This document shows, in pieces, positions 16,229 to 29,161 of a stretch of 64,000 nt of DNA. Location: positions 2,294,001-2,358,000 of the forward strand of contig NZ_CP128846.1 of assembly GCF_030388665.1 (NCBI RefSeq), given 5' to 3'. A model generated the notes under the pieces. It was not told the origin of the DNA, ran no database searches, and was given only the letters and a program-made list of their open reading frames with translations. This DNA comes from Streptomyces flavofungini (GTDB lineage Bacteria; Actinomycetota; Actinomycetes; Streptomycetales; Streptomycetaceae). Made by a program: the position numbers and the translations under genes. Numbering within the stretch: the first letter of the stretch is position 1; each line of letters starts with the position of its first letter.

Positions 16229-17085
16229 GCACTCACGCCCGCACGACGGGCCCGACCGACCCGACCGACCACGGCCCCTGGTTCCACTACGTCGCGCGCC
16301 GACCGGCCCCGCGCCGGCGTCTGCTGTGCCTGGCGGGCGCGGGCAGCGGCCCTTCGGAGTTCCTGACCTGGCCCGACGAGCTGCCCTCGGACACCGAGGT
16401 GTGGCCCGTCCAACTGCCCGGCCGCGAGCAGCGCCTGCGCGAGGAGCCCTGCACCGACCTGCCCGCGCTCATGCAGAACCTCACGAAAGCCCTCGACACC
16501 GCCGAAACGGCTGGCCCCCTCGGAACCACCGATGACACCACTCCCCTCCCCCCGACTCCCCTCCCCTTGATCCTGTTCGGCCACAGCTTCGGCGCGCTGG
16601 TCATGTACGACCTGGCTCGCCGGATCAGCGCCGAACGCCCCGGGCACGTGCGAGGGCTCATCGTCTCGGGCCTGGCCGCGCCCGCCGGGCCGACCGCACG
16701 ATCGCGGATCAGCCACCTGGACGACGCCGAACTCCTCGCCTGGATCCGCGGACTCGGCGGCACCCCCACGGAACTCCTCGACGAACGCTGGTTCGCCGAC
16801 TGGCTGGTGCGCGACGTCCGCACCTCGTACCGCATTCGCGAGAGCTACGAGGCCGTCTCCGCACCTCCTCTGACCTGCCCAGTCGTCGCCTTCGGCGGCC
16901 AGGACGACTTCGAGACGAGCGCCCCCGACCTGGACGCGTGGGCACGGGTCACCACCGGACCGTTCCGCAGCCACACGGTGCCCGGCGGCCACTTCTTCCT
17001 CCGGGAGCAACGCACTCAATTCCTCACACTCCTCGGCGAGGAGCTGCGCCGCATCCCCAGTACGGAACCGGAAACACGGTCATGA
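16225..17085 (+). CDS. Type II thioesterase (first of two)
   Basis: 286 residues, alpha/beta hydrolase of the GrsT/RifR class. Nucleophile serine in LFGHSFGALVMYDLA, Asp in FGGQDDFE and His in VPGGHFFL complete the triad; LPGREQRLREE near the N-terminus is also typical. These enzymes remove stalled or wrong acyl groups from carrier proteins, or release amino acids from them. A Thr/Pro-rich stretch (TTDDTTPLPPTPLPL) just before the nucleophile elbow looks like a small low-complexity insertion. ATGA overlaps join it to the A-PCP gene and to the second thioesterase. With a separate A-PCP loading module, one job could be hydrolysing the modified amino acid off the carrier (inference). Confidence 0.93.
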   Translation: MSTHARTTGPTDPTDHGPWFHYVARRPAPRRRLLCLAGAGSGPSEFLTWPDELPSDTEVWPVQLPGREQRLREEPCTDLPALMQNLTKALDTAETAGPLGTTDDTTPLPPTPLPLILFGHSFGALVMYDLARRISAERPGHVRGLIVSGLAAPAGPTARSRISHLDDAELLAWIRGLGGTPTELLDERWFADWLVRDVRTSYRIRESYEAVSAPPLTCPVVAFGGQDDFETSAPDLDAWARVTTGPFRSHTVPGGHFFLREQRTQFLTLLGEELRRIPSTEPETRS

Positions 17086-17951
17086 GCACACCGGACTCCC
17101 CCACCGCTCACACCGACCACGCCGACCACGCCGACGACCGATTCGAACGCTGGTTCCCCGGCGTCCCCCCGGATCCCCGACTGCCCTCGCTCCTCTGCCT
17201 GGCCGGGTCAGGAGCGGGCCCGGGCGAGTTCCGCCCGTGGAAGGCGGCCCTGTCGGGACGGATCGAGGTGGCGGCGGTGGCCCTGCCCGGCCGCGAACAC
17301 CGCGCCCGCGAACCCAACATCGACTCCCTCCCCGAACTCGTCACACGCCTGAAGAGAGCGGCCGCACCCCTCCTCACGGCACCGTTCGCGCTCTTCGGTT
17401 ACAGCACCGGCGCCCTCGTCATGTACGAACTGGCCCGCTCCTTCACCCCCGAACAGCGAGGCAATCTCCTCCACTTGTTCGTGGGCGGCCAGCCCGCACC
17501 GCGCTGGCCCCAGACGGACAGCGGCCACAGCGACCAGAGCGACGCCGAACTGATCGACTACCTGCGCCGGATGGGCGGCACCCCGGAAGAGGTCCTGAAC
17601 AGCCCCCCGTTCATGCGCCTGTTCCTCCGCGCCCTCCGCGCCGACCTCCGATTCGCCGAACGGTACGACCACCCGGGCCCGGCACACCTGCCCTGCCCCC
17701 TCACCCTGTTCGCCGGCCAGCACGACGCCGTCGTCCCCCCACACACCCTCCCGGCCTGGGTAGAGGAAACAGCCCGGGCCTTCCGCTTCGTCCGCCTCCC
17801 GGGAGCCCACTTCACACTCCGCACGGACCGCGACCTGATCATCGCCGGGATCAGCGCCCTCTGCGGCTCCACGAGGTCCGCGCATGGCTCACTGCCGCAT
17901 GCGCCGCCCGCCCACCCGCCGTCACGTCAGCCGCGGTGCTGGTCGAAGTGA
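17082..17951 (+). CDS. Type II thioesterase (second of two)
   Basis: 289 residues, same family as its neighbour and clearly paralogous (LCLAGSGAGPGEF, LPGREHRAREP, LMRRMGGTPEEVL-like region). Triad: Ser in LFGYSTGALVMYELA, Asp in FAGQHDAVV, His in LPGAHFTLR. The start ATG overlaps the first thioesterase stop, so this is the last gene of the operon. An N-terminal run of His/Asp (HTDHADHADD) precedes the domain and the C-terminus has a proline/histidine-rich tail of about 25 residues. Two different type II thioesterases fit a cluster with several carrier systems: one may edit the NRPS, the other the free-standing carriers. Confidence 0.92.
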   Translation: MSTPDSPTAHTDHADHADDRFERWFPGVPPDPRLPSLLCLAGSGAGPGEFRPWKAALSGRIEVAAVALPGREHRAREPNIDSLPELVTRLKRAAAPLLTAPFALFGYSTGALVMYELARSFTPEQRGNLLHLFVGGQPAPRWPQTDSGHSDQSDAELIDYLRRMGGTPEEVLNSPPFMRLFLRALRADLRFAERYDHPGPAHLPCPLTLFAGQHDAVVPPHTLPAWVEETARAFRFVRLPGAHFTLRTDRDLIIAGISALCGSTRSAHGSLPHAPPAHPPSRQPRCWSK

Positions 17952-18164: not shown

Positions 18165-18338
18165 TCAGTGGCGTTGGGCGGGGTCCGGGCCTTCGGGGTC
18201 GTTCTTCAGCGCGCGCTTCTCGCTCTTGAGGATGCGGGTCGCCTTGCCGGCTGAGCGTGTCAGCTCGGGCAGCTTCCTCACGGCGAGGACGACCACGACG
18301 ACAAGGAGGATCAGGGCCAGCTCGCTCAAGCCGAACAT
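18165..18338 (-). CDS. TatA/TatE-like membrane protein
   Basis: 57 residues from the ATG at 18338, which gives the family-typical start MFGLSELALILL; an in-frame GTG at 18347 adds three residues. One transmembrane helix (LALILLVVVVVLAV), then the hinge RKLPELTRSAGKA and an amphipathic Arg/Lys-rich helix, the TatA layout. Shorter than the usual 80-95 residue Streptomyces TatA, with a minimal C-terminal tail, and no tatB or tatC beside it. It is therefore likely a second or specialised TatA. A TCTACA-N4-TGTAGA dyad lies 54 bases upstream, the same element found before blaI, terD, LCP, terB and Spo0M-family genes here. Confidence 0.85.
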   Translation of the reverse strand: MFGLSELALILLVVVVVLAVRKLPELTRSAGKATRILKSEKRALKNDPEGPDPAQRH

Positions 18339-18391
18339 CAGGTCCACTCACTCCCGGATACGTGTGGCGGCCGACGCCCGCTGCGCCGGTA

Positions 18392-18407
18392 TCTACAATC
18401 CTGTAGA
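18392..18407. promoter_or_regulatory. BlaI-type operator, site 1 (TatA-like / ion channel)
   Basis: TCTACA-ATCC-TGTAGA. It lies in the divergent gap, 54 bases from the TatA-like start and 91 bases before the ion-channel start, so it could control either or both. It matches the other five copies in all twelve half-site bases. BlaI/MecI repressors bind TACA/TGTA dyads. Confidence 0.75.
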
Positions 18408-18498
18408 AGTGTCGCCCATGGGGAGACGTCTCAACAACCCCGCCCTTCCGTCCTGTTGGCCGTAGCGGGAGCGCGCCGTCGAGATGTGAGGAAGCAGA

Positions 18499-19416
18499 GT
18501 GCCAGACCCTACGGACAGGGCTCCGTCCGCCCGCGAGGTTCTCGCGGCGCGCTGCAGGGCCGTCACCGAGGCGCGCTGGTTCACGGTCACCGTCTTCGCG
18601 CTGATCCTCGCCAACGCGGCCCTGCTGGGCGTGGAGACGTACGCGGGTCTGGTGGCGGACTGGCACCGGTGGTTGAGCCTTGCCGAGCACGTCTGTGTGG
18701 CCGCCTTCACCATCGAGATACTCCTGCGCGTCTCCGCGCACGCCGACCGGCCCAGGGACTTCTTCCGCGACCCGTGGAACCTCTTCGACCTGGCCGTGCT
18801 CCTGTCCGCTTTCTTGCCGGTCATCCGTGAGAACGGCACCATCCTGCGGCTGCTGCGCCTGGCGCGCATCCTGCGGGCGGCCCGTTTCCTGCCGCAGCTG
18901 CGCGTGGTGATGGTCGCCGTGGGGCGCAGCCTGCCGGGTACGGTCAGCTTCCTGCTCGTCGGCGCGCTGCTGCTGTATCTGTACGCGATGGTGGGCTGGG
19001 TCTTCTTCGCCGACCACGACCCCGAGCACTTCGGCTCCATCGGCCGTGCCGTCCTCACCTTGTTCCTGTTGATGACCCTGGACGGCCTGGGGGACGCGGT
19101 CCGCGCGGGTCTGGAGATCTCCCGCTGGAGCTTCGTCTACTACGCCTCGTACGTCCTGCTGGCCTCCTTCGTCCTGGTCAACGTCCTCATCGGCGTGGTC
19201 ATCACCTCGCTGGAGGAAGCACGCGACATGGAGAAGAAGCGCGATGCGGAAGGTGACGCCGTGGCCTCCTCCGGCACCGCGGCGCCCGTCGACCAGGACC
19301 TGCTGCGCGAACGCATCGCCACAGCGCGCCGCGCCCTCGACGATCTCGAACGGACCCTCACACCCCCGCAGCGGGAAGCGGAGCAAACCGTTTCGACGTC
19401 CAGTAGGCACCCATAG
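18499..19416 (+). CDS. Voltage-gated-type ion channel, NaChBac-like single-domain subunit
   Basis: 305 residues, GTG start at 18499. Six membrane helices can be read: S1 near WFTVTVFALILANAALL, S2 AEHVCVAAFTIEILLRV, S3 NLFDLAVLLSAFLPV, an S4 with Arg at every third or fourth place (RLLRLARILRAARFLPQLR), S5 GTVSFLLVGALLLYLYAM, pore loop and S6 YASYVLLASFVLVNVLIGVVI. The pore reads TLDGLGDAV where NaChBac has TLESWAS, so ion selectivity is uncertain. A cytoplasmic tail with coiled-coil character follows (LLRERIATARRALDDLERTL), as in bacterial sodium channels, where it drives tetramer assembly. A BlaI-type dyad lies 91 bases upstream. Confidence 0.88.
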   Translation: MPDPTDRAPSAREVLAARCRAVTEARWFTVTVFALILANAALLGVETYAGLVADWHRWLSLAEHVCVAAFTIEILLRVSAHADRPRDFFRDPWNLFDLAVLLSAFLPVIRENGTILRLLRLARILRAARFLPQLRVVMVAVGRSLPGTVSFLLVGALLLYLYAMVGWVFFADHDPEHFGSIGRAVLTLFLLMTLDGLGDAVRAGLEISRWSFVYYASYVLLASFVLVNVLIGVVITSLEEARDMEKKRDAEGDAVASSGTAAPVDQDLLRERIATARRALDDLERTLTPPQREAEQTVSTSSRHP

Positions 19417-19440
19417 CGAAGCAGACCTCAACCGCCCCTG

Positions 19441-20658
19441 CTACAGCACCCGTCGGGCTCCGGGCAGTCGGCGCAGCCCCGCTGCGAGCAGGAAGGAAGC
19501 CGGGACGGCGAGACCCGACACGATCAGCCAGGCGGTCACGGGCGGCAGAGCCCGGTCGGCAAGGAAGTACTGCGCGGTCACCACCAGCGGCAGATGGATC
19601 ACGTAGACGGCGTAGGCGCCGGCGGCCAGTTCCTTCTGAAGGCGTCCGCGGCGGGTGACGGCCTCACGAAAGAGCGCGAGGAAGCCGACGCACAGCGACA
19701 CGCACAGCGCGCTGTCGTACGCCGCCCAGAGCGCCGATGGCGTGTCGAGTCCGCCGGGGCCGAAGCAGTCCGCGTCAGCGCCGACCGCGAACAGTGCAGC
19801 CGCTCCCGCCGCACCCCCGGCGAGCCACACCCAGCCGACGCGGGCGTCGAACCGCTCAAGCCAGTCGCGCCGCGAGGCCAGGACGCCGAGCGTGAAGAAG
19901 GCGGCGTACTGCGGGAACCGGGCGGGCTCGACCTGGAGGATGTCCAGGAACGGCACCCACTCGTCGAGCGGGTACGCCAGCCGGATCAGGAAGGACGCGA
20001 CGGCGATCACGGTGGCGAGCAGCAGCAGGTGCCGGTGCCCGGGCGCCGCTTCCGCACGCGGGGAGCGGGCGCGCTCGCGGTCGCCGGCCAGGAGGCGGGC
20101 CAGCCACCGGCACAGGACGTACAGCAGGCTGTAGGCGAGCAGGTTCTGAATGAACCACAGGTGCCCGAACTGCAGGTCCGGCCAGGACGGTCCGCTCCAG
20201 TCGGCGGGCTCGTCCCCGAGCCCGAGGTACACGTCGGTGAAGTAGCGCGGGAACGCGATCGACGGCAGGCCGCGGTAGTGCACGTAGTACGCGTACATCA
20301 GCCCCGGCACGATCGTGAGCGCGCCCACGGTCAAGGGGATGCCGAGGCGCAGTAACCGCCCCTTCAGGAAGGCGCGTCCGCCCCGCCGCCGGCAGGAGAC
20401 GGGCACGAAGACCGCGGAGGCGAAGAAGAACAGGCTCATGAAGAAGGAGCCGTCGAGGGCGGAGAGGGTGGCGAGCGGGCCGGTGCGGGGCTGGTCTTCG
20501 ACGTACCACCAGTCGGCGGGCCCGTAGGGCTGGGCGGCGTGGTGGATCACGACCAGGACGGTCAGGGCGACGCGGAGGTTGTCGAGCCAGTCGAGGCGGG
20601 TGGGTGAGCGCGGTGTCGATTGCTGGGAAGGGGCGTCGGAGCCCGATGCGGTGTGCAT
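19441..20658 (-). CDS. Acyltransferase-3 family membrane protein
   Basis: 405 residues with about ten transmembrane helices, Acyltransferase-3 (OafA-like) family. The N-terminal signature RLDWLDNLRVALTVLVVIHH carries the conserved histidine; FFMSLFFFASAVFVPVS and HLWFIQNLLAYSLLYVL are typical later helices. Such proteins O-acylate sugars, wall polymers or antibiotics; the substrate here is unknown. The start ATG (20656-20658) lies inside a perfect 38-bp palindrome, with no clear ribosome site, and the gene follows a TetR gene by 40 bases on the same strand. Expression is therefore probably tied to that palindrome, either as TetR operator or as an RNA hairpin over the start. Confidence 0.88.
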   Translation of the reverse strand: MHTASGSDAPSQQSTPRSPTRLDWLDNLRVALTVLVVIHHAAQPYGPADWWYVEDQPRTGPLATLSALDGSFFMSLFFFASAVFVPVSCRRRGGRAFLKGRLLRLGIPLTVGALTIVPGLMYAYYVHYRGLPSIAFPRYFTDVYLGLGDEPADWSGPSWPDLQFGHLWFIQNLLAYSLLYVLCRWLARLLAGDRERARSPRAEAAPGHRHLLLLATVIAVASFLIRLAYPLDEWVPFLDILQVEPARFPQYAAFFTLGVLASRRDWLERFDARVGWVWLAGGAAGAAALFAVGADADCFGPGGLDTPSALWAAYDSALCVSLCVGFLALFREAVTRRGRLQKELAAGAYAVYVIHLPLVVTAQYFLADRALPPVTAWLIVSGLAVPASFLLAAGLRRLPGARRVL

Positions 20659-20687
20659 GCGTACACCATGGTGTACGCATGCACACC
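20650..20687. promoter_or_regulatory. Perfect 38-bp palindrome over the acyltransferase start codon
   Basis: Half-site GGTGTGCATGCGTACAC, centre CATG, then the exact reverse complement; every base from 20650 to 20687 pairs. It fills the 40-base gap between the TetR and acyltransferase genes and includes the acyltransferase ATG. As DNA it would be a large operator; as RNA it would be a 17-bp hairpin hiding the start. Confidence 0.9.
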
Positions 20688-20698
20688 CCGCACTGGTG

Positions 20699-21322
20699 CT
20701 AGCCCCCCTTTGCCTCTTCTGCGGAGCCGAAGAACCCCCGCATCAGGAGGATCTGGTTGGCCGCGCTGCGGCGCGCGAGCACCTCGGGGGCGAACATCGG
20801 CTCGTCGAGGTTGGGCTGCATGACGCGCTCCAGGAGCAGCGGGCCGAGGATCAGGCACAGCATCTGGAAGGGCGCCCACTCCCCGACGTCCGCCGCCATT
20901 GCGTCGCTTCCGTGGACGGCGGCCAGGCGCTCCACCTCCACCCGCGCCCCGCTCAGGAGCCGCTCGAAAAGGGCCGCGCTCGCCTCGCTGTCCTCGAGCA
21001 GCACCTGGCGCAGATAGCCGCGCAGCACCGGGTCCGCCCCGAACACACGCGCCGAGACGTCGCCGAGGGACGCCATCAGCTCCGCCCCGGGCTCCAGCTC
21101 ACGCAGTTCGCGTCCGATGCGGTCGAGCACATGGGTGTCGACGGCCGCCCGCAGCCCTTCTTTCGAGCCGAAGTGCTTGGTCACGAGTGCCGGGGACAGT
21201 CCCGCGGCAGCCGCCACGGCCCGGGTCGACGTCGCCTCGAAGCCCCGCTCGGCGAACAGTTCAAGTGCCGCCTCGCGCAGTCGGGCCCGCCCGGTCAGGT
21301 CGTTCTTCGCCACCGCTCGCAT
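20699..21322 (-). CDS. TetR-family transcriptional regulator
   Basis: 207 residues. N-terminal helix-turn-helix typical of the family: LREAALELFAERGFEATSTRAVAAAAGLSPALVTKHFGSKEGLRAAV (in two blocks, turn at AAAAGLSPALV). The C-terminal ligand/dimer domain has no recognisable signature. It is followed on the same strand by the acyltransferase gene across a 38-bp palindrome; both probably form one unit under this regulator. The upstream gap to the TerD gene stop (21323-21388) is short, so its promoter must lie within about 65 bases. Confidence 0.92.
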   Translation of the reverse strand: MRAVAKNDLTGRARLREAALELFAERGFEATSTRAVAAAAGLSPALVTKHFGSKEGLRAAVDTHVLDRIGRELRELEPGAELMASLGDVSARVFGADPVLRGYLRQVLLEDSEASAALFERLLSGARVEVERLAAVHGSDAMAADVGEWAPFQMLCLILGPLLLERVMQPNLDEPMFAPEVLARRSAANQILLMRGFFGSAEEAKGG

Positions 21323-21388
21323 GAGCAGAAGCGTAACGAGCGGTCCCTGTGAGGGTTCTGGCCTTGCGGCGCGTGAGTACGCCGTGGC

Positions 21389-21976
21389 TCACAGGTGGGC
21401 GGCGATGGCGGGCATGAGGTCCTGGAAGGTGCGACCCGCGGCCGGTTCTCCGATGGCCTTCATCTGCCAGCCGGGGCCGGTCCGCTGGACCTTGGCCATG
21501 ATCTGGGCGGTGTGGTTGCCGCCGCCGGTGAGGGTGTAGCGGGCCAGCTCCTGTCCGCTCGTTTCGTCGATCAGGCGGCAGAAGGCGTTCTGGACCTCGG
21601 CGAAGGTCTGGCCGGTGAAGGAGTTGACGGTGAAGACGATCTGGTCGACCTCCGCGGGGACGCGGGCGAGGTCGACGAGGATGGCTTCGTCGTCGCCGCC
21701 CTGACCCGCGCCGCCGACCAGGTTGTCGCCGGTGTGACGCACGGACCCGTCCTTGCTGGTGAGGTGCTGGAAGAACACGAAGTCGACCGGCTGTCCGGCG
21801 GCGAACAGCACGGCGGAGGCATCCAGGTCGATCTCGCCGCCGCCGGTGAGCTTGGCGAGGAAGCCCTTGCGCGGGGCGGCCTGCCAGCCGAGCCCCATGC
21901 GTACGGAGCTCAGCGTGGTGCCATCGGTCTTGCTCAGGTTGATCTGCTGACCCTTGGTGAGGTTCACGGAGGACAT
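21389..21976 (-). CDS. TerD-family calcium-binding stress protein (first copy)
   Basis: 195 residues. TerD signatures: NLTKGQQINLSK, MGLGWQAAPRKGF, GGEIDLDASAVLF, and GDNLVGGAGQGGDDEAILVDL, which carries the Asp-rich calcium site. TerD proteins are cytoplasmic calcium-binding proteins linked to tellurite tolerance, phage inhibition and, in Streptomyces, to differentiation. GGAGGA stands shortly before the ATG. It lacks its own TCTACA-N4-TGTAGA dyad; it may be read from the upstream TerD promoter through the frameshifted gene (same strand). Confidence 0.93.
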   Translation of the reverse strand: MSSVNLTKGQQINLSKTDGTTLSSVRMGLGWQAAPRKGFLAKLTGGGEIDLDASAVLFAAGQPVDFVFFQHLTSKDGSVRHTGDNLVGGAGQGGDDEAILVDLARVPAEVDQIVFTVNSFTGQTFAEVQNAFCRLIDETSGQELARYTLTGGGNHTAQIMAKVQRTGPGWQMKAIGEPAAGRTFQDLMPAIAAHL

Positions 21977-22024
21977 GGAGGAGCTTCTTTCTGTACTGGG
22001 GCGAGTGGCCGGGGGGGGTGTGGG

Positions 22025-22733
22025 TTACTGCGGGTGGGGTGGGCTCGCGGAGAGCTGCTGGCGCAGGTACGGGAGCATGCCGCGCTCCAGCAGCGCCTGC
22101 TGCCAGGTGTTACGGGCCTGTTCGGCCGCCGGATTGTGGACGACAAGCGGCGGAGCCGGAGTGGTGCGTCGGCGAAGTGCTGTCGTGAGCAGGCCGCCGA
22201 GTCCCATAGCGGTGGTGACGACCGAGATCAGGGCGCTGATCCATCCGGAGGTGATGAGGGAGGGGGCCATCCGGCTCTCTGGCGTGACGAGTCGGATGCC
22301 GTACCCGAGGAAGAGGAAGGCCACGCCGGCGATCGCGGAGAGGAGCGGAGCCAGGACCGCGACGGCCGGAAGCAGCACCCCGGCTCCAGGACTGGTGGGA
22401 GGCCGTGACGGCTCGCCCGGGTCCTGGAGGACGTGGGTCACTGCGGCGCGGGCTCGCCGATAGGCCCGGTACTCATCGGCGGCCGTCCCGGCTATCTCCG
22501 TGGCGGAGGCCCAGGCCCGGGCGCGAAGTTGGTGCCTGTCGGGGGCGGTCGACCCCTGTTCCAGGGCGGAGCGGATGTCGGTGACGTCCAGGGCGAGGTT
22601 CAGGACCCACTCGAAGTCGGCCCGGTCCTCCGGGCGCAGGTGCGGCAGGTGTGTCACATCTCTTCCCGGCGATGCTGACGATGAGGTTGAGCACGCGCGT
22701 GCCGTGGTCTGCCAGCCTCCACGAGGTCCGCAT
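22025..22733 (-). pseudogene. Frameshifted membrane protein gene between two TerD genes
   Basis: Two reading frames join to one plausible protein. From the ATG at 22733 the first frame reads MRTSWRLADHGTRVLNLIVS and stays sensible to IAGK; the second frame continues DVTHLPHLRPEDRADFEWV to the stop at 22025. Dropping one base near 22661 restores a single frame of 235 residues, so one inserted base separates them: a real mutation or a sequencing error. The restored product has two hydrophobic helices (LLPAVAVLAPLLSAIAGVAF and SALISVVTTAMGLGGLL) and an Arg-rich tail. Family not recognised. Position between two terD genes on the same strand suggests a shared transcript starting at the 23409 operator. 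Confidence 0.65.
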
Positions 22734-22773
22734 CCCTGGCCCGCCGAGCTGGCGGAGGCTGGCGAACTGGTTC

Positions 22774-23349
22774 TCAGACGGTGACGCCGAAGTCGGCGGC
22801 GATACCGGCGAGGCCGCTGGCGTAGCCCTGGCCGACCGCGCGGAACTTCCACTCCTCGCCGTTGCGGTACAGCTCCCCGAAGACCATGGCCGTCTCGGTG
22901 GAGGCGTCCTCGGTGAGGTCGTAGCGGGCGATCTCCTGGCTGTCGGCCTGGTTCACGACACGGATGAAGGCGCCTCGGACCTGGCCGAAGGACTGCTGGC
23001 GGGCCTCGGCGTCATGGATGGACACCGGGAACGTGATCCTGGTGACGTCGGCGGGAACCGCGGCGAGATCGACCTTGATGACCTCGTCGTCGCCCTCGCC
23101 CTGGCCGGTGAGATTGTCACCGGTGTGCTCCACGGAGCCGTCGGGGCTCTTGAGGTTGTTGTAGAAGACGAAGTGCCCGTTGGAGGCGACCTTGCCGGAG
23201 TCCCCCACGAGCAGCGCGGACGCGTCCAGGTCGAAGTCCGTGCCGGTGGTGGTACGCACGTCCCAGCCGAGACCGACCAGGACGGCCGTCAGCCCGGGGG
23301 CCTCCTTGCCGAGCGACACGTTGCCACCCTTGGACAGCGAAACTCCCAT
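22774..23349 (-). CDS. TerD-family calcium-binding stress protein (second copy)
   Basis: 191 residues, the classic TerD/TerE length: [59 protein letters not shown] and [16 protein letters not shown] are all present, so both acidic calcium-binding loops are intact. Closest here to the canonical tellurite-resistance TerD. It heads a minus-strand run (TerD, frameshifted gene, TerD) and is divergent from blaI; the BlaI-type operator at 23409-23424 lies 60 bases upstream of its start. Expected to be derepressed together with blaI when the M56 protease or another signal removes the repressor (inference). Confidence 0.95.
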
Positions 23350-23408
23350 GCTCTACTCCCGAGTTGAGTCAACCAAGGGCTCGGACGCGCAGCCCACGAA
23401 GCCTAGAA

Positions 23409-23424
23409 TCTACAGCACTGTAGA
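23409..23424. promoter_or_regulatory. BlaI-type operator, site 2 (terD / blaI)
   Basis: TCTACA-GCAC-TGTAGA in the divergent gap between terD and blaI. In the terD direction the right half runs into TAGATT, which looks like a -10 box, so repressor bound here would cover the promoter. Position beside blaI suggests autoregulation. Confidence 0.8.
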
Positions 23425-23516
23425 GAACTCGGGTGGGACGTCCCGCGACCGCCTACGACTGAATTCGGCCTTGATGAGCCCCGGTTGCCCACCGGCGGGC
23501 CAGTACGATGTGGCGC

Positions 23517-23545
23517 GCTCCGGACACACGGGGGAGGTCCGGAGC
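23517..23545 (+). other. Leader hairpin before blaI
   Basis: GCTCCGGAC / GTCCGGAGC inverted repeat, 9-bp stem and 11-base loop, ending 15 bases before the blaI ATG and just ahead of its GGGAG ribosome site. It could modulate translation or stability of the blaI message. Confidence 0.35.
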
Positions 23546-23560
23546 AGAAGGGAGCCGGGC

Positions 23561-23965
23561 ATGACGGACACAGGACGCGGCCGGGACGATTCACGCCACC
23601 GGCGGCGCGGACAGGGCGAGCTGGAAGCACTCGTCCTGTCCTCGTTGCGCGAGGCCGACGAGGCGGTGAGCGCGGCCTGGGTCCAGGAACGGCTCGGCGG
23701 CGACCTCGCCTACACCACCGTGATCACGATCCTCACCCGACTGCTCGCCAAGGGCGTGGTGACCAGGGAGCGCGTGGGCCGGTCGTTCGTATGGACCTCG
23801 GCCTCCGACGAGGCGGGACTCGCGGCGCACAAGATGCGCAAGGTCCTCGACGGCGAACGGGACCGCGAAGCGGTCCTCGCCAGCTTCATCACGGCCCTGT
23901 CCGCCGAGGACGAGCGGGTGTTGCGGGACCTGTTGCGCGACACCCCCGCGGGGCGGGAAGACTGA
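23561..23965 (+). CDS. BlaI/MecI-family transcriptional repressor
   Basis: 134 residues. Winged-helix domain: GELEALVLSSLREADEAVSAAWVQERLG, recognition helix region YTTVITILTRLLAKGVVTRERVG and wing SFVWTS; then the dimerisation helices (AVLASFITALSAEDERVLRDLL). In staphylococci and bacilli such repressors are cleaved after signalling by a BlaR/MecR protease; here the M56 protease gene follows by 6 bases. The likely operator is TCTACA-N4-TGTAGA, present at 23409 in its own upstream region and at five other promoters between 18.4 and 29.2 kb, none before a beta-lactamase gene. Probably a local stress-regulon repressor. ATG at 23561 follows GGGAG. Confidence 0.95.
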   Translation: MTDTGRGRDDSRHRRRGQGELEALVLSSLREADEAVSAAWVQERLGGDLAYTTVITILTRLLAKGVVTRERVGRSFVWTSASDEAGLAAHKMRKVLDGERDREAVLASFITALSAEDERVLRDLLRDTPAGRED

Positions 23966-23971
23966 CACCTC

Positions 23972-24907
23972 ATGGGGGTCTTCATCTTCCTGCCGCTGGT
24001 GCTGCCGCTGACGGCCTGGCCGGTGGCACGCCTGGCCGAACAGCACCTGCACCCGCGCCTAGCCACCCGCCTCCTGACCGGGGTGGCCGTGGTGATGGCC
24101 ACGTGCAGCACGGTCAGCCTGGGCCTGCTCATGGTCGTGGGCACCGCACAACTGCCCGGCAACCCGCTGCCGGACGGCTGGTCGGACCCGGAGGTACGCG
24201 AGGCCGTCCCGTACGAGGAGGTCGTCGGCAAGATCGCCATCCCCGTCCTCCTCGTCGTGGCCACCGGCTGCGGACGCACGATGCGCCGCCACCGGCTCGT
24301 ACGCCGACGGGCCCGCCTGGCACTGCGCGGGGTGCGGGACACGACGGTGGTCGTGCTGGACGACGCCGAGCCCTACGCGTACGCGCTACCGGGCGGCAGG
24401 GCACCTGACCGGATCGTGGTGACGACAGGCCTGCTGTCCTGCCTCCAGGCACCCCAGCGCCGGGCCCTGTTCGCCCACGAGCGGGCCCACCTCGCCGCCG
24501 GGCATCACCGGCACCTGCTCGCGGTGCAGCTGGCAGCCCGCGCCAACCCCTTCCTGCGCCCACTGCGCACGGCCGTCGCGTACACCACCGAGCGCTGGGC
24601 CGACGAAGAAGCCGCCCAGACGGTCGGCGACCGCAGAACAGTCGCCATCGCGATCGGCAAGGCCGCCCTGGTCTCCAAGGGCGCCCCCGCGCCCACGCTC
24701 GCCGGCCTCACAGGGGCGGGGCCGGTCCCGCGCCGCGTCGCGGCCCTGCTGGGCCCGGCACCCCTCGCCCGCAGCTGGCCCTCGGTGTTCACCTCGGTGG
24801 GGCTCGCCGCATGGACGGCGGCCGTCGGGACGGTCGCCTCGGCCATGTCCTCGGCCAACTCGGCCGTGACGATGATCCTCATCCTGCACGCGGCCACACC
24901 CCTGTAG
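23972..24907 (+). CDS. M56-family membrane metalloprotease (BlaR1/MecR1-like, no sensor domain)
   Basis: 311 residues. Zinc motif HERAH in LFAHERAHLAAGHHRH, with a probable third ligand in TERWADEEA, the M56 arrangement. Membrane helices at the N-terminus (FLPLVLPLTAWPVARL, VAVVMATCSTVSLGLLMVV), one near IAIPVLLVVATG and one or two at the C-terminus. It lacks the roughly 250-residue extracellular penicillin-binding domain of BlaR1/MecR1, as do many actinobacterial M56 proteins, so the signal is not evident. Located 6 bases after blaI and surely co-transcribed; it should inactivate BlaI, directly or indirectly (family knowledge, untested here). Confidence 0.93.
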   Translation: MGVFIFLPLVLPLTAWPVARLAEQHLHPRLATRLLTGVAVVMATCSTVSLGLLMVVGTAQLPGNPLPDGWSDPEVREAVPYEEVVGKIAIPVLLVVATGCGRTMRRHRLVRRRARLALRGVRDTTVVVLDDAEPYAYALPGGRAPDRIVVTTGLLSCLQAPQRRALFAHERAHLAAGHHRHLLAVQLAARANPFLRPLRTAVAYTTERWADEEAAQTVGDRRTVAIAIGKAALVSKGAPAPTLAGLTGAGPVPRRVAALLGPAPLARSWPSVFTSVGLAAWTAAVGTVASAMSSANSAVTMILILHAATPL

Positions 24908-24979
24908 GTCGTGCCCCAGCTGTCGCGGGCACCTGCGCACAGCCCGAGGCCCATCCAGCAGGGGCAGCGCGGCGGCCGG

Positions 24980-25243
24980 TCAGGCGCGGTCCTTGAACCG
25001 CTGGAGCGCGGCCACACCCGCCGCGGCCAAGGCGACCTGGATCGCCCATTCGATCCAGTCGATGCCCCGGGTCTCCGACACACCGAGACCGGCGGCGATG
25101 CCGGTGCCGACCAGGGCCGCGGCGATGCCGACGGCGATCGTCCACAGCATGCCGATCCGCTGGCGCCCCGGCAGGACCAGGCGTCCCAGAGCTCCGATGA
25201 TCAGGCCGATCAGTACCGCACTGATGACACCCGAGATACCCAT
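24980..25243 (-). CDS. GlsB/YeaQ/YmgE-family stress-response membrane protein
   Basis: 87 residues, three hydrophobic helices. Hallmark GISGVISAVLIGLIIGALGRLVLPGRQ followed by GMLWTIAVGIAAALVGTGIA fits the transglycosylase-associated/GlsB family, whose small membrane proteins are induced by stress. Convergent with the M56 gene (72-base gap). There is no TCTACA-N4-TGTAGA dyad in front of it, so despite its place it may be outside the BlaI regulon. Confidence 0.9.
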   Translation of the reverse strand: MGISGVISAVLIGLIIGALGRLVLPGRQRIGMLWTIAVGIAAALVGTGIAAGLGVSETRGIDWIEWAIQVALAAAGVAALQRFKDRA

Positions 25244-25387
25244 CTCATTGCCCCTATGGAGGATTCGTCCCGCTCAGCGGGATACAGCCGACGAACACAG
25301 GGTTGGTTGCGGGCTTCTCCCCGCAGCACCTTGGGGCGGGCCGGCGCCCTCGCTCGTCGCGTGGTCCACCGGCCCGCAGATGGCGTG

Positions 25388-25609
25388 CTACTTCGTCGCG
25401 GCCTCCAGTGCCGCCAGCGCCTGCGCCCACCGCACGTACTTCAGATCCGCGAGATCGGCCACCGTCTTGACGCCGAACGCCTCCTTGAGCAGCTCACCGT
25501 CGCGGTCCGATACACCCTTCAACGCGGACACCGGCGCAGCGAGGACCTCCGCGATCTCCTTGTCCACCCACGCCTTATCCACCACTTTGCCCAGTTCGAT
25601 CGTGGCCAT
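25388..25609 (-). CDS. Small helix-hairpin-helix-like protein
   Basis: 73 residues; ATG at 25609 chosen because GGGAGGA stands just upstream and because the longer frame before it has no protein-like character. Sequence SALKGVSDRDGELLKEAFGVKTVADLADLKY resembles helix-hairpin-helix DNA-binding repeats, with an acidic N-terminal helix (WVDKEIAEVLAAP). Function unknown; DNA binding or protein contact is possible. A BlaI-type dyad lies 52 bases upstream of the start, so it is a probable regulon member. Confidence 0.8.
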   Translation of the reverse strand: MATIELGKVVDKAWVDKEIAEVLAAPVSALKGVSDRDGELLKEAFGVKTVADLADLKYVRWAQALAALEAATK

Positions 25610-25660
25610 GACAGTCCTCCCAGGAGACGGAAACGGCAAGGCAAGGGGCACCCCCCGCCT

Positions 25661-25676
25661 TCTACATTCATGTAGA
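25661..25676. promoter_or_regulatory. BlaI-type operator, site 3 (HHH protein)
   Basis: TCTACA-TTCA-TGTAGA, extended by three more paired bases on each side (25658-25679, CCT...AGG), making it the longest of the six dyads. It lies 52 bases upstream of the HHH-protein start. Confidence 0.78.
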
Positions 25677-25953
25677 AGGCTAGAGGACAGGAGCCGCCTG
25701 CGGAGCGGAGAGCCGTCAATTCGGCGCCAATACACCCGCCCCCGGACGGCCCACCCGGACGAGGGAGAGAGAACTCCGCCATCATCACCCGGACAGGTAG
25801 CGGCAGTCGGGCCCGAAGAGGTACTCCGAGTGACGCCCCACCGTGAGTCGAGGCATCGCGCACCCTCCATCGGGGCGGACGCGAGCGCTCGCACGTCGGC
25901 ACGCCTCCCGACCCGCGTCCCGGCCCCCTCACGGCGCGAGCCCTACCCTAATT

Positions 25954-25969
25954 TCTACACGCATGTAGA
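25954..25969. promoter_or_regulatory. BlaI-type operator, site 4 (LCP gene)
   Basis: TCTACA-CGCA-TGTAGA, 55 bases before the LCP start. The right half reads on as TAGAGT in the gene direction, resembling a -10 hexamer. Apart from this and site 3 the 25610-26023 interval shows no gene. Confidence 0.78.
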
Positions 25970-26023
25970 GTTCAGCTCCTTGACGCCACACCCTTGTGAC
26001 CCCGGAGCTGGACTGGAGATGGG

Positions 26024-27400
26024 ATGGGACGCCATCGGTGCGATTCGCGCGCCCGCAACAGACCGTCGCAGAGGAAGCACCGTCCGCTGCGGTGGGTGCT
26101 CGGTTCGCTCACGGTGCTCGTGCTGACGGCCGCGGGGGTCGGGGTGTGGATCTATCAGGATCTGAACGGCAACATCCACGCCGCCGACATCGACGCCAAG
26201 CTGGGAAGTGACCGGCCCGCCAATCTGAGCCCTGGCTCGAAGAACATCCTGGTCGTGGGCTCGGACAGCCGAGACGGCGCCAACGCCAAGTACGGCAGGG
26301 GCCTTGAGACCATGCAGTCGGACACCCTGATGCTGGTGCACCTGCCGGCCGACCGGAAGTGGGCCACGGTCGTGTCCTTCCCGCGCGACTCCTGGGTCAG
26401 GATCCCCGCCTGCGACAAGGGCGACGGCAGACTGTCCGCCGTCCACCACTTCAAGATCAACGAAGCGTTCTCGATCGGCGGCAGCACCGGGGATGTGGCG
26501 AGCGCCGCGGCCTGCACCATAAAGACCGTGGAGGCGAACACCGGCCTGCGCGTGGATCACTTCGCCTCCCTGGACTTCCAGGGCTTCAAGGGCATGGTCA
26601 ACGCCCTGGGCGGCATCGAGGTCTGCCCGAAGGAGGCGATCCACGACAAGAAGGCCCACCTGGACCTGGAAGCGGGCTGCCAGACCATAAGGGGCGAGGA
26701 GGCGCTGGGCTACGTCCGTACCCGCTACAGCGTCGGCGACGGCTCGGACATCGGGCGCATCGGCCGCCAGCAGGAGTTCATGGAAGCCCTCGCCGAAAAG
26801 GCGCAATCGAAGCTCACCAACCCCAAGGCGCTGTACGGCTTCTTGAAGTCCGCGACCACGTCACTGACCACGGACAGCTCGCTGGCCGGGATAAAGCCCC
26901 TGTACGGGCTGGCGTCCGAGCTGAAGGGCGTCCCGGGCGACCGGCTGACCTTCCTGACCGTCCCGAACTACCCGCGCCAGGCCGACGTCCCCACCGACCG
27001 GGCGAACGTGGTGTGGCAGTTCCCGCAGGCCGCCGACCTGTTCGCCGCCCTGGCCCAAGACAAGGAGGTCGGCAAGGCCGACAAGCGGAAGCTGAAGGCC
27101 GCGGCCAAGAATCCGGTGTACGCCTCGTCCGTCCGCGTGCGCGTCCTCAACGGGACGGACAGCCCCGGCCGCGCCGGGGCGGCCGCGGAGCAGCTGCGCG
27201 AGGCGGGCCTCGTCGTCACGGAAACCGGCAACGCGCCAGCGAGTGCCCACGCCACGCGGGTGAGCTACCCGGACGGAATGAAGGAGCGCGCCGAGCAGGT
27301 CGCCTCCCGGCTGCCCGGCACCCGCGCCGTGCGGGACGCGGAGGCGACACCCGGCGTGGTGACGGTGACCATAGGCGAGGACTTCAAGCGCGTGCGCTGA
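26024..27400 (+). CDS. LCP-family (LytR-CpsA-Psr) cell-wall glycopolymer ligase
   Basis: 458 residues. A basic N-terminus, one transmembrane helix (WVLGSLTVLVLTAAGVGVWIY, about 24-44), the LCP domain (NILVVGSDSRDG, QSDTLMLVHL, VSFPRDSWV with its conserved Arg/Asp, LGGIEVCP, and YVRTRYSVGDGSDIGRIGRQQ) and a C-terminal LytR_C domain (VRVRVLNGTDSPGRAGAAAEQL). LCP enzymes transfer undecaprenyl-linked polymers such as teichoic acids, teichulosonic acids or arabinogalactan to peptidoglycan. ATG at 26024 with GGAG upstream. A BlaI-type dyad 55 bases before the start places wall remodelling in the proposed regulon. Confidence 0.94.
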   Translation: MGRHRCDSRARNRPSQRKHRPLRWVLGSLTVLVLTAAGVGVWIYQDLNGNIHAADIDAKLGSDRPANLSPGSKNILVVGSDSRDGANAKYGRGLETMQSDTLMLVHLPADRKWATVVSFPRDSWVRIPACDKGDGRLSAVHHFKINEAFSIGGSTGDVASAAACTIKTVEANTGLRVDHFASLDFQGFKGMVNALGGIEVCPKEAIHDKKAHLDLEAGCQTIRGEEALGYVRTRYSVGDGSDIGRIGRQQEFMEALAEKAQSKLTNPKALYGFLKSATTSLTTDSSLAGIKPLYGLASELKGVPGDRLTFLTVPNYPRQADVPTDRANVVWQFPQAADLFAALAQDKEVGKADKRKLKAAAKNPVYASSVRVRVLNGTDSPGRAGAAAEQLREAGLVVTETGNAPASAHATRVSYPDGMKERAEQVASRLPGTRAVRDAEATPGVVTVTIGEDFKRVR

Positions 27401-27484
27401 TCGCACCACCCCGCCCTGGCGCGATTCCGCGACAAGGCGGGGATGACGTCGACGCCCCGGTCGCCGGCAGAAGGAGCCGGAGAC

Positions 27485-27940
27485 CTAGAGGTCGAACTCG
27501 TGCGGCGGCAGGTCGAGCGTGTAGCACGCCTCCCGCACGACGGCCTGCTCGTCCTTGTCGAAGTCGCCGTCGGCACCACCGATGACGATGCCGATCTGGA
27601 TGACCGCGCGGGCCTCGGCGGGCTTCTTCTTGGCCTTGGCGATCTCCTGGAGCACGCTGACCTTGCCGAGCTGGAAGTCGGCGGCCAGCTGGTCGAGGTT
27701 CGCCTCGAACCGTCGCTGGAGGTCCTCGGAGGGGAAGTTGCGCAGCACCTCGTTGGTGAGGATGAGTTCGGTGACGCGCTGGCGCTCGGAGGGGTCCACC
27801 GAGCCGTCGGCGGCCGCGACCAGGGCGCACATCGCCATACTGGCGTCCCGGAAGGCGCCGCTCTTCAGGTCGTTCTTCTTGGCCATGAGCTGCGTCTGCA
27901 TCTGCGACGCGGATTCCTTCAAACGGTCCCACAGGGCCAT
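27485..27940 (-). CDS. TerB-family tellurite-resistance-like protein
   Basis: 151 residues. TerB signature: ASMAMCALVAAADGSVDPSERQRV and the second acidic motif VIGGADGDFDKDEQAVVREAC, each with the Asp cluster of TerB metal sites. Cytoplasmic and helical. Together with two TerD genes it gives a partial ter set (no TerC, TerA or TerZ seen). The leader between promoter and start contains a strong hairpin (27969-28007), and a BlaI-type dyad lies just beyond it at 28014. Confidence 0.92.
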   Translation of the reverse strand: MALWDRLKESASQMQTQLMAKKNDLKSGAFRDASMAMCALVAAADGSVDPSERQRVTELILTNEVLRNFPSEDLQRRFEANLDQLAADFQLGKVSVLQEIAKAKKKPAEARAVIQIGIVIGGADGDFDKDEQAVVREACYTLDLPPHEFDL

Positions 27941-27968
27941 GCCCGCTCAACTCCAGCCGATGTCGTGA

Positions 27969-28007
27969 GTGTTGTCCGGGCCGCAGGGAGCACAGCCCGG
28001 ACAACAC
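27969..28007 (-). other. Strong hairpin in the terB leader
   Basis: GTGTTGTCCGGGC / GCCCGGACAACAC, a perfect 13-bp stem with a 13-base loop, lying between the BlaI-type operator (28014-28029) and the terB start (27940). It is inside the expected 5' untranslated region, so an RNA-level role (stability, attenuation) is possible. Confidence 0.6.
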
Positions 28008-28013
28008 CTATCT

Positions 28014-28029
28014 TCTACAGAAATGTAGA
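28014..28029. promoter_or_regulatory. BlaI-type operator, site 5 (terB)
   Basis: TCTACA-GAAA-TGTAGA, extended to CT...AG pairs (28012-28031). It is 74 bases upstream of the terB start, with the leader hairpin between. Confidence 0.78.
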
Positions 28030-28073
28030 AGCTAGCAGGAGTACGCCTGGTTTCCGCCTGGCATGCTCAGTGT

Positions 28074-29096
28074 TCACTCTTCTTCCGCGTCTTCGTCGCC
28101 TTCGAAGAAGTCCCCGACCTCGTCGACCACTTCGGCCGCGACCATGCCGCCGACGACACCGACCGCGAGCCCAGCGGCACCCGCCGCGACGGCGGTGCCC
28201 ACGCCCGGCCCGGAGCGATGGTGCCCGCCGTGACCGTGGCCGTCGTGGCCGTGCGGGTGGAAGCCGTGACCGTGGCCGTGGCTGTCGTGACCGTGGCCGT
28301 AGGCGTCACTGTGTCCGTACGAGGACCGGTGCTCGACCATCTGCCGCACCCAGCCGTCGACCACGCTCTTCCAGTCCTGGTGCGTGATTCCCTCGTGGGA
28401 GACGGCGAAGCGGGTGACCGCGTCATGGCCGGAGGAGAAGAAGCCGCCGCGCTTGTCGGCCTCCAGCACCACCTCCATCTCGTCGCGGTGGGCCAGGAAG
28501 CTCACCTCGATCTCGTTGACCGTGTGCGCGTACTCCGGGGACGGGGCGAGCTCGATCTCCTGGTAGAAGGGCAGTTGCTGGCCGGTGCCGCCGATGCGGC
28601 CCAGCTCCAGGTCGGCGGACTTGAAGCCGAAGCCGAGCTGCCCGAAGGCTTCCAGGATCACCTCCTGGGCAGGCAGTGGGGCGACGGCCAGTGCGTCCAG
28701 GTCTCCCTTGTCCTTGGCGCCCGCCACCGCCAGTTCGGTGCGCACGCCGAGGACGATGCCCAGGCTCTGCCCGTACAACTCGGTGATCGGCGTCTCCCAT
28801 GGCAGGGTGATCGCGAACGGCACGCTGTCCTGCTGGCCCTCGCCGAGCCGGAAGCCGCCGCCGACGATGAACCGGTCGAAGGCCACATACCCCTCGCGCT
28901 CACCGCCGTCGTGCTCGGCCTCCACACGCGCCACCAGCTCCAGGGTGATGTGCTCGACGTCGACGTCGGCGTTGCCGCCCTGGAGGTTCACCTGCCCGCG
29001 CAGTGTCCCGCCGGGCTGGATGGCGCCGGGCTTGAGGACCGTATCCACCGAGGGGCCGCCCACCCCGAGCGATCCGAGCAGTCGCTTGAACACCAT
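28074..29096 (-). CDS. Spo0M-family (arrestin-like) protein with histidine-rich tail
   Basis: 340 residues from the ATG at 29096, preferred to the GTG at 29108 because AAGGAG is correctly spaced only for the ATG. Spo0M features: VFKRLLGSLGVGGPSVDTVL at the N-terminus and arrestin-type beta strands (GGTLRGQVNLQGG, VEHITLELVARVE, PFAITLPWETPIT). Spo0M proteins influence sporulation and cell division in Bacillus. Unusual here is the C-terminal part: about 18 histidines in roughly 45 residues (YGHGHDSHGHGHGFHPHGHD and on), then a Gly/Ala/Val hydrophobic segment (VAAGAAGLAVGVVGGMVAAE) and an acidic end. That suggests metal binding and perhaps membrane contact. A BlaI-type dyad is 50 bases upstream. 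Confidence 0.9.
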   Translation of the reverse strand: MVFKRLLGSLGVGGPSVDTVLKPGAIQPGGTLRGQVNLQGGNADVDVEHITLELVARVEAEHDGGEREGYVAFDRFIVGGGFRLGEGQQDSVPFAITLPWETPITELYGQSLGIVLGVRTELAVAGAKDKGDLDALAVAPLPAQEVILEAFGQLGFGFKSADLELGRIGGTGQQLPFYQEIELAPSPEYAHTVNEIEVSFLAHRDEMEVVLEADKRGGFFSSGHDAVTRFAVSHEGITHQDWKSVVDGWVRQMVEHRSSYGHSDAYGHGHDSHGHGHGFHPHGHDGHGHGGHHRSGPGVGTAVAAGAAGLAVGVVGGMVAAEVVDEVGDFFEGDEDAEEE

Positions 29097-29145
29097 CGCG
29101 GCGTTCACTCCTTACCGTTCTTCGACGTTCCGTCAGAATCCCTTG

Positions 29146-29161
29146 TCTACAGGGCTGTAGA
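29146..29161. promoter_or_regulatory. BlaI-type operator, site 6 (Spo0M-family gene)
   Basis: TCTACA-GGGC-TGTAGA, 50 bases upstream of the Spo0M-family start. It is the rightmost copy seen; none occurs elsewhere in the window. Confidence 0.78.

Follow-up and report, generated by a model that had tools for sequence, protein, structure and literature searches.

This study concerns a gene cluster in a 64,000-nucleotide stretch of the Streptomyces flavofungini genome (assembly GCF_030388665.1, contig NZ_CP128846.1, positions 2,294,001 to 2,358,000; hereafter the window), in which genes for a BlaI/MecI-type repressor (BlaI) and a membrane metalloprotease lie among genes for Ter-type, Spo0M-family and envelope proteins, and in which one inverted repeat, TCTACA-N4-TGTAGA (the dyad), recurs as a candidate BlaI operator. 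A pattern scan of the window located the dyad in six exact copies, all twelve half-site bases matching in each, at the positions that an earlier note on this DNA had reported (Table 1). No seventh copy was found in the window even with two mismatches allowed, in agreement with that note. At this tolerance, 0.29 sites per window are expected by chance, and none of 100 shuffles reached six.

The distance from the dyad to the start codon is 59 bp for TerD, 51 bp for the helix-hairpin-helix-like (HHH-like) protein, 54 bp for the LytR-CpsA-Psr (LCP) ligase, 73 bp for TerB, and 49 bp for Spo0M. The dyad between the genes for the TatA-like protein and the ion channel lies 44 bp from the GTG start of the former, or 53 bp from an inner start, and 91 bp from the start of the latter, and blaI begins 136 bp from the dyad that it has in common with terD1. 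Matches to Pfam families confirmed the proposed identities of TerD, LCP, TerB, Spo0M, the ion channel, and BlaI. The TatA-like identity was borne out by the Pfam model TatA_B_E, but the protein falls under every NCBIfam TatA cut-off, and the HHH-like protein had neither a Pfam nor an NCBIfam match.

Table 1 Dyads and genes of the cluster, in window coordinates
Feature	Position	Strand	Basis or remark
TatA-like small membrane protein, 60 aa from GTG start	18165..18347	-	Pfam TatA_B_E 37.2 bits, cut-off 21
Dyad between TatA-like and ion-channel genes	18392..18407	.	Exact match; one of eight exact in the genome
Ion_trans (voltage-gated-channel-like) protein, 305 aa	18499..19416	+	PF00520, E 4e-43
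Second TerD, co-oriented with TerD1 and downstream of it	21389..21976	-	PF02342
210-aa protein without family assignment, flanked by the terD genes	22025..22657	-	Homologues near dyad in relatives
TerD1	22774..23349	-	PF02342, E 3e-86
Dyad common to divergent terD1 and blaI	23409..23424	.	Exact match; arrangement recurs in many relatives
BlaI/MecI-type repressor, 134 aa	23561..23965	+	PF03965, E 7e-23
Membrane zinc metalloprotease, BlaR1-protease-like, no sensor domain	23972..24907	+	PF01435; HExxH...ExxxD; hydrophobic segments
Small membrane protein without own dyad	24980..25243	-	Weak NCBIfam PRK10457, below cut-off
HHH-like protein, 73 aa	25388..25609	-	Label from earlier note and by eye; dyad-side conservation in relatives
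Dyad ahead of HHH-like gene	25661..25676	.	Exact match
Dyad ahead of LCP gene	25954..25969	.	Exact match
LCP wall-polymer ligase with LytR_C domain	26024..27400	+	PF03816, PF13399
TerB	27485..27940	-	PF05099
Dyad ahead of terB	28014..28029	.	Exact match
Spo0M-family (arrestin-like) protein	28074..29096	-	PF07070, E 3e-76
Dyad ahead of spo0M	29146..29161	.	Exact match

The Penicillinase_R domain (PF03965) of BlaI scored 81.6 bits against a cut-off of 22.6, and in profile comparisons with solved structures the nearest was 2g9w, followed by 1p6r, 1okr/1sax, and 1sd4/1xsd (BlaI, MecI). We take 2g9w to be Rv1846c, the BlaI of Mycobacterium tuberculosis. A TACA/TGTA dyad stands ahead of blaI itself and of the proposed target genes, in the window as well as in relatives. 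The same superfamily contains the CopY-type metal-responsive repressors, and a weak CopY_TcrY match together with the historical tie of Ter proteins to tellurite could suggest a regulon that responds to metals or tellurite. We regard this as highly unlikely: the NCBIfam CopY_TcrY score, 27.0 bits, is far under the cut-off of 121.95, the arms are four rather than two bases apart, the partner gene encodes a protease, and the 134-residue sequence has no cysteine, whereas CopY is described as having a C-terminal Cys-X-Cys (PMC7253601).

The dyad is rare in the genome as a whole. The assembly of 9,362,490 bases contains eight exact copies, six of them inside the window, and with one mismatch allowed, two further sites appeared, against one place for the reversed pattern used as a control. 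Outside the window the sites lie at two loci. At 6.48 Mb, an exact dyad adjoins an ion-channel gene whose product is 91% identical to that of the window, and a one-mismatch dyad adjoins a TerB identical to the window's. At 8.07 Mb, an exact dyad separates the gene for a TerD with 85% identity from that for a second BlaI, with 75% identity over 125 residues, which is followed by a metalloprotease gene, and a one-mismatch dyad adjoins a TerB 83% identical to that of the window. All eight exact sites are hence at the gene set or its paralogues. Scatter over unrelated places, which the earlier note would have counted against its proposal, was not observed, and the proposal withstood this test. Chance origin and a common repeat are ruled out as sources of the dyads by the shuffles, the whole-genome scan, and the reversed-pattern controls. 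Scanning spacings from N1 to N9 in this genome returned the same eight sites, with N4 in every case, so that no other spacing was retained, and the core CTACA-N4-TGTAG had no sites beyond these eight. The two-base spacing of CopY, which is also that of the mec and bla operators, does not occur between these arms in this genome.

These loci qualify two terms used in the earlier note. The six dyads are clustered, as the word compact implied, but four more sites exist at the paralogous loci, including a second blaI-protease pair; likewise, one BlaI clade goes with this gene set, but two BlaI paralogues and several loci are involved rather than a single repressor. TerD had 19 matches in the genome, 18 of them above the cut-off, and an exact dyad precedes two. 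Penicillinase_R had five matches. A third full BlaI (at C1:4088118) was rejected as a dyad user, its 3.3-kb region containing no TACA-N(0-8)-TGTA; it is probably the counterpart of a BlaI of about 35% identity that is present in many Streptomyces. As a separate observation, the 6.48 Mb locus (L011:6356-8747) aligns with window positions 18383-28041 in blocks of 89-99% identity. These blocks include terB and the one-mismatch dyad next to it, fragments of the GlsB-like gene and of the two terD genes, and the ion-channel gene together with its dyad, so that the locus amounts to a reduced, mosaic version of the cluster in the window.

The earlier note had left it to a scan of related Streptomyces whether the dyad stays with these genes, and it does. 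Our sample comprised 61 Streptomyces genomes, including that of the window, and the exact dyad was present in 37 of them, at 109 sites, against two matches of the reversed pattern. We examined 60 regions; the 49 that were chosen by site hold 69 of the 101 dyads in relatives, and among the dyads listed, a gene of the set starts within 260 bp of 63 of the 69. The genes concerned, which overlap in count because one dyad can face two genes, were BlaI (20), TerD (19), TerB (18), TatA (7), Spo0M (6), HHH (4), LCP (2), the 210-aa protein (1), and the protease (1). Among the six dyads without a set gene, two stand at terB or HHH genes missed by open reading frame (ORF) calling, two by PAP2, and one by DUF347; the sixth (L138), by a peptidase-like gene when inspected by eye, is probably due to chance. 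A second set, selected by BlaI sequence alone, consisted of the best 80 of 480 named loci (1.18 Mb). In this set, 121 exact dyads occur in 67 loci, all 121 within 300 bp of a set gene with BlaI counted as a member, and the reversed pattern does not occur in the 1.18 Mb. The metalloprotease is present in 78 of the 80 loci. In the nearest locus, from Streptomyces alboflavus (NRRL B-2373, L155), there are six dyads in the same order as in the window, and S. viridochromogenes DSM 40736 (L166) has the locus as well.

The dyad also appears to have a defined place relative to the promoter. In 204 gene-oriented sites from related species, which are not independent, the hexamer TANNNT has a background of 0.1% per position. 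Its start falls at -5 for 33 of the 53 terB sites and at +12 for 70 of the 79 terD and 11 of the 12 LCP sites, counts to which the dyad itself contributes one hexamer letter at -5 and two at +12; the -6 set, comprising 13 of 17 spo0M sites, is for this reason the cleanest evidence. A matching -35 TTG was seen at only two of 67 sites. From these positions we infer that the operator covers the -10 and start region.

Presence of the dyad tracks presence of BlaI. With a near BlaI defined by E < 1e-32, a threshold chosen after the values had been seen, 32 of the 61 genomes have both, seven have BlaI alone, five have the dyad alone, and 17 have neither (Fisher p = 8e-6). The dyad is absent from all 13 genomes in which no BlaI match is better than 1e-15. 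A draw across the order gave the dyad in 131 of 197 genomes, most of them of the same genus, with two control matches. Outside the genus, the exact dyad was found in 15 of 268 genomes in a survey of the class, compared with five genomes for the reversed control, and among 13 loci from there (L235-L247) only one (L247) has BlaI and protease beside the dyad. In another (L237), TerD is about 800 bp away, and in a third (L235) there is a weak PAP2 match; one further genome (G398) has a dyad about 40 bp before a BlaI that faces DedA (L292). The exact dyad thus belongs chiefly to the order of the window.

Several observations weigh against a role of the dyad as BlaI operator, besides the choice of threshold and the letters that the dyad lends to the hexamer. 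In the CopY operator the arms are separated by N2, not by N4 as here. No exact dyad exists anywhere in four of the genomes that have a near BlaI (G016, G020, G033, G040), and within the 13 kb around their BlaI genes, there is none within one mismatch; in G016, however, a dyad with one mismatch adjoins a different BlaI (L276). Among the 80 loci chosen by BlaI, 13 lack an exact dyad, 11 of these being 16 kb long; six of the 13 have a one-mismatch dyad, which brings the total to 73 of 80. In the other three of the seven genomes with BlaI alone, the BlaI-chosen regions (L124, L125, L130) show only the variant TCTACG-N4-TGTAGA. Finally, there are the five genomes with a dyad and no near BlaI, three of which have a more distant BlaI adjoining the dyad, and two have PAP2 or DUF347 genes there. 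Regarding the four dyad-less BlaIs, they form one subclade (Shimodaira-Hasegawa-like approximate likelihood ratio test, SH-aLRT, 99), and no Ter-type genes occur in the 13 kb around them, for which reasons targets and operator may have been lost together.

These four genomes are also what could be said for a different regulator, conserved with these genes and having BlaI as a target rather than as its own binding protein. We consider this very unlikely, given that the arms are of the BlaI type TACA/TGTA, that the dyad follows BlaI among genomes, that more distant BlaI genes with different gene neighbours have the same or a near-identical dyad upstream, and that blaI itself is the commonest gene at the dyad (20 of the 69 site-chosen dyads listed and 64 of the 121 BlaI-chosen ones). 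It is instead very likely that BlaI binds the dyad, and highly probable that it represses terD, terB, spo0M, the genes for the TatA-like, HHH-like, LCP, and ion-channel proteins, and the blaI-protease pair itself. Taken as a whole, the proposal that the six dyads are BlaI operators keeping this gene set repressed appears likely on the sequence evidence. A BlaI dimer would sit on the dyad over or abutting the -10 element and the start site and so block RNA polymerase, and the 75%-identical paralogue at 8.07 Mb probably binds the same operators.

How repression might be relieved is suggested by the protease. The 311-residue protein has HERAH at residues 169-173 and ERWAD at 207-211, and in 111 of 113 homologues an HExxH motif is likewise followed by ExxxD; the other two sequences resemble out-of-frame stretches. 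By hydropathy, the protein probably crosses the membrane three times in its N-terminal part and once or twice in its C-terminal part, and a Pfam scan found no C-terminal penicillin-binding sensor domain. The earlier designation as an M56 protease was not supported by Pfam, whose M56 model was not matched and whose sole match is PF01435 (M48), but in RefSeq a relative from the same gene context is labelled 'M56 family metallopeptidase'. Staphylococcus aureus BlaR1, with the same zinc motifs, is reported to cut BlaI directly at Asn101-Phe102 (PMC9834060). In the BlaI of the window, Phe109 aligns with the corresponding MecI Phe and is invariant in 15 diverse BlaIs. Judged by sequence features, the protein is a BlaI/MecI-family repressor with BlaR1-like protease chemistry predicted for its partner, and with neither the sensor nor the bla and mec targets.

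We therefore weighed two ways of releasing the repressor. In the first, the protease, lacking a penicillin sensor, would cut BlaI before Phe109 upon a disturbance of the envelope, and this cleavage would switch the whole gene set on at once. In the second, the operators would be derepressed by a small ligand, for example a peptide from peptidoglycan turnover, and the protease would be a mere modulator; in line with this, a peptidoglycan dipeptide is reported to bind BlaI/MecI directly and to destabilise the DNA complex (PMC3305447), the protease has no recognisable sensor domain, and a plasmid-borne PAP2-type BlaI precedes a gene for a 90-aa hypothetical protein rather than for an annotated protease. 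The near-constant company of the protease in the BlaI-chosen loci, the retention of its zinc motifs, and the invariant Phe at the predicted cleavage site speak against this second way, and release by ligand is rather unlikely, whereas release by the protease is fairly probable.

Related repressors appear to use a near-identical dyad at genes for cell-wall lipid recycling. In relatives, genes for DedA/VTT, BacA/UppP, PAP2, a DUF347 protein, and a class A penicillin-binding protein (PBP) start near dyads, often beside a more distant BlaI. DedA, PAP2, and UppP proteins recycle the polyprenyl-phosphate lipid carrier. Five such BlaIs were searched against 119 genomes of the order, of which 99 matched at 1e-20, Ter-type BlaIs included, and the best 30 loci (L262-L291) were analysed. 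Read by eye within about 1.5 kb, 18 of these have DedA and/or PAP2, four have a PBP, and eight have neither. The exact dyad occurs in only three of the 30; in 16, two dyads with zero to two mismatches each lie exactly 19 bp apart (for example, L263:1891 and 1910), beside DedA and/or PAP2 genes, and two dimers may bind there cooperatively.

A tree of 107 BlaIs, its rows partly chosen by module, its labels taken from neighbours within 3.5 kb and its resolving columns few, placed the Ter-type BlaIs in one clade of 36 rows (30 Ter-type, one mixed, five none; SH-aLRT 100). Another clade (SH-aLRT 100) holds 22 of the 32 lipid-type BlaIs in 30 rows, eight of them none, with the ten remaining lipid-type rows outside it, and PBP-type BlaIs form a third clade of five rows (SH-aLRT 96). 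At L097, L277, L282, L283, and L285, a BlaI gene of this third clade and a class A PBP gene are divergently oriented, with an exact or one-mismatch dyad. That arrangement, together with family membership, is what favours a beta-lactam-responsive system like the classical BlaI/BlaR1 with its resistance target elsewhere. We find this improbable for the window, since no beta-lactamase or PBP is among the genes scanned at the ten sites of its own genome, as the earlier note had said of beta-lactamase, and since the protease is without a detectable penicillin sensor.

Outside the order, a BlaI match at 1e-12 was obtained in 28 of 40 hand-picked genomes, and among 30 loci from these searches, the exact N4 dyad lies by BlaI only in L292; UppP, DedA, and DUF347 still occur there (L292, L293, L320, L321). 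Arms one base closer (N3, TCTAC-type) were observed in a few BlaI upstream regions outside the order (L303, L309:1926/1943, L315:1268/1292), and because of these, arm spacing may be a lineage trait.

The envelope link made in the earlier note is thus extended to sister BlaI clades beside lipid-carrier and PBP genes. Envelope or lipid-cycle stress is the likeliest signal because of these sister modules and of a gene content resembling that of the Bacillus sigma-W regulon, and we hold envelope stress to be reasonably probable. A broader idea, which we offer tentatively, is that actinobacterial BlaI-protease pairs may form a general family for surveillance of the envelope and lipid carrier, at root unrelated to beta-lactams, with one clade directed to Ter/Spo0M/TatA/LCP genes, a sister with 19-bp tandem dyads to DedA/PAP2/UppP, and a third to class A PBP.

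Some genes of the cluster are without a dyad of their own. The second terD is possibly co-transcribed with terD1, and its homologues in relatives have their own dyad (for example, L096 and L113). The 210-aa protein had neither a Pfam nor an NCBIfam match. The small membrane protein that follows the protease gene had no Pfam match, and is presumably of the GlsB/transglycosylase-associated type. Window positions 19441-21322, inside the cluster, encode a membrane acyltransferase (Acyl_transf_3) and a regulator of the TetR type, neither with a dyad. At 16225-17951, two adjoining ORFs with thioesterase domains lie beside a long ORF, and a biosynthetic cluster may have its border here. On a plasmid of S. 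fungicidicus, the annotated order is TatA, BlaI, M56, TerB, and 'sporulation protein', and an exact dyad separates the first two. Ter-type and PAP2-type BlaI modules, each with an exact dyad, were observed on the large Streptomyces plasmids NZ_CP023408.1 (353232-356530) and NZ_CP108443.1 (269197-271184); as both types occur on large plasmids, the modules may travel.

If the broader idea of a surveillance family is correct, Ter proteins would be effectors of an envelope and lipid-II-cycle stress response, in which release of a Streptomyces repressor does the job of sigma-W in Bacillus. TerD, TerB, and Spo0M-like proteins occur widely and are still little understood, and their control by one releasable repressor would give them a testable physiological setting, which includes wall-polymer ligation and Tat-type genes. 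The sharpness of the operator, with eight exact copies in 9.36 Mb and all of them on target, would allow the regulon to be predicted across many Streptomyces. Judging from the sister modules, the actinobacterial BlaI family appears often to watch the cell-wall lipid cycle, and such a role, if true, would recast the origin of the beta-lactam-sensing BlaI/BlaR1 systems. In open-access full texts, subscription papers and regulon databases lying outside this coverage, we found no description of this regulon content, in accordance with the earlier note, which knew of no such system; one apparent hit for BlaI, PMC12175524, was discarded, the match being to the author name Blaise.

Compared with known systems, the closest likeness is to staphylococcal and Bacillus BlaI-BlaR1 and MecI-MecR1, in which a repressor of the same family stands beside a membrane zinc metalloprotease and a TACA/TGTA dyad also precedes the repressor's own gene. 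In contrast to these, the arms here are spaced by N4, no penicillin sensor was found, neither beta-lactamase nor mecA is among the genes scanned, and the targets are multiple Ter/Spo0M/LCP/TatA genes over three loci. M. tuberculosis Rv1846c, which we take to be the nearest solved relative by sequence (2g9w), is likewise a BlaI with a regulon in an actinobacterium. That regulon is reported to include blaC, sigC, and atpH (PMC8265638), and none of these three genes named there belongs to the Ter-type set. CopY/CopR copper repressors share the superfamily and the TACA/TGTA arms, but, as described in PMC7253601, the CopY operator is TACA-N2-TGTA, and these repressors have a Cys-X-Cys metal site and a copper export operon. 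With the Ter (tellurite/stress) systems, the cluster has the TerD and TerB families in common, here as separate units, several with their own operator. We take the yceC-yceH operon of Bacillus subtilis to be TerD-type. According to the account in PMC3498285, spo0M is a core target and yceC-yceH a secondary target of sigma-W, so that the same kinds of protein are co-regulated in an envelope-stress response; the parallel is functional only, since sigma-W activates as an extracytoplasmic function (ECF) sigma factor, whereas release of a repressor is proposed here. BlaI regulons as such are known, and what is apparently new is this gene content.

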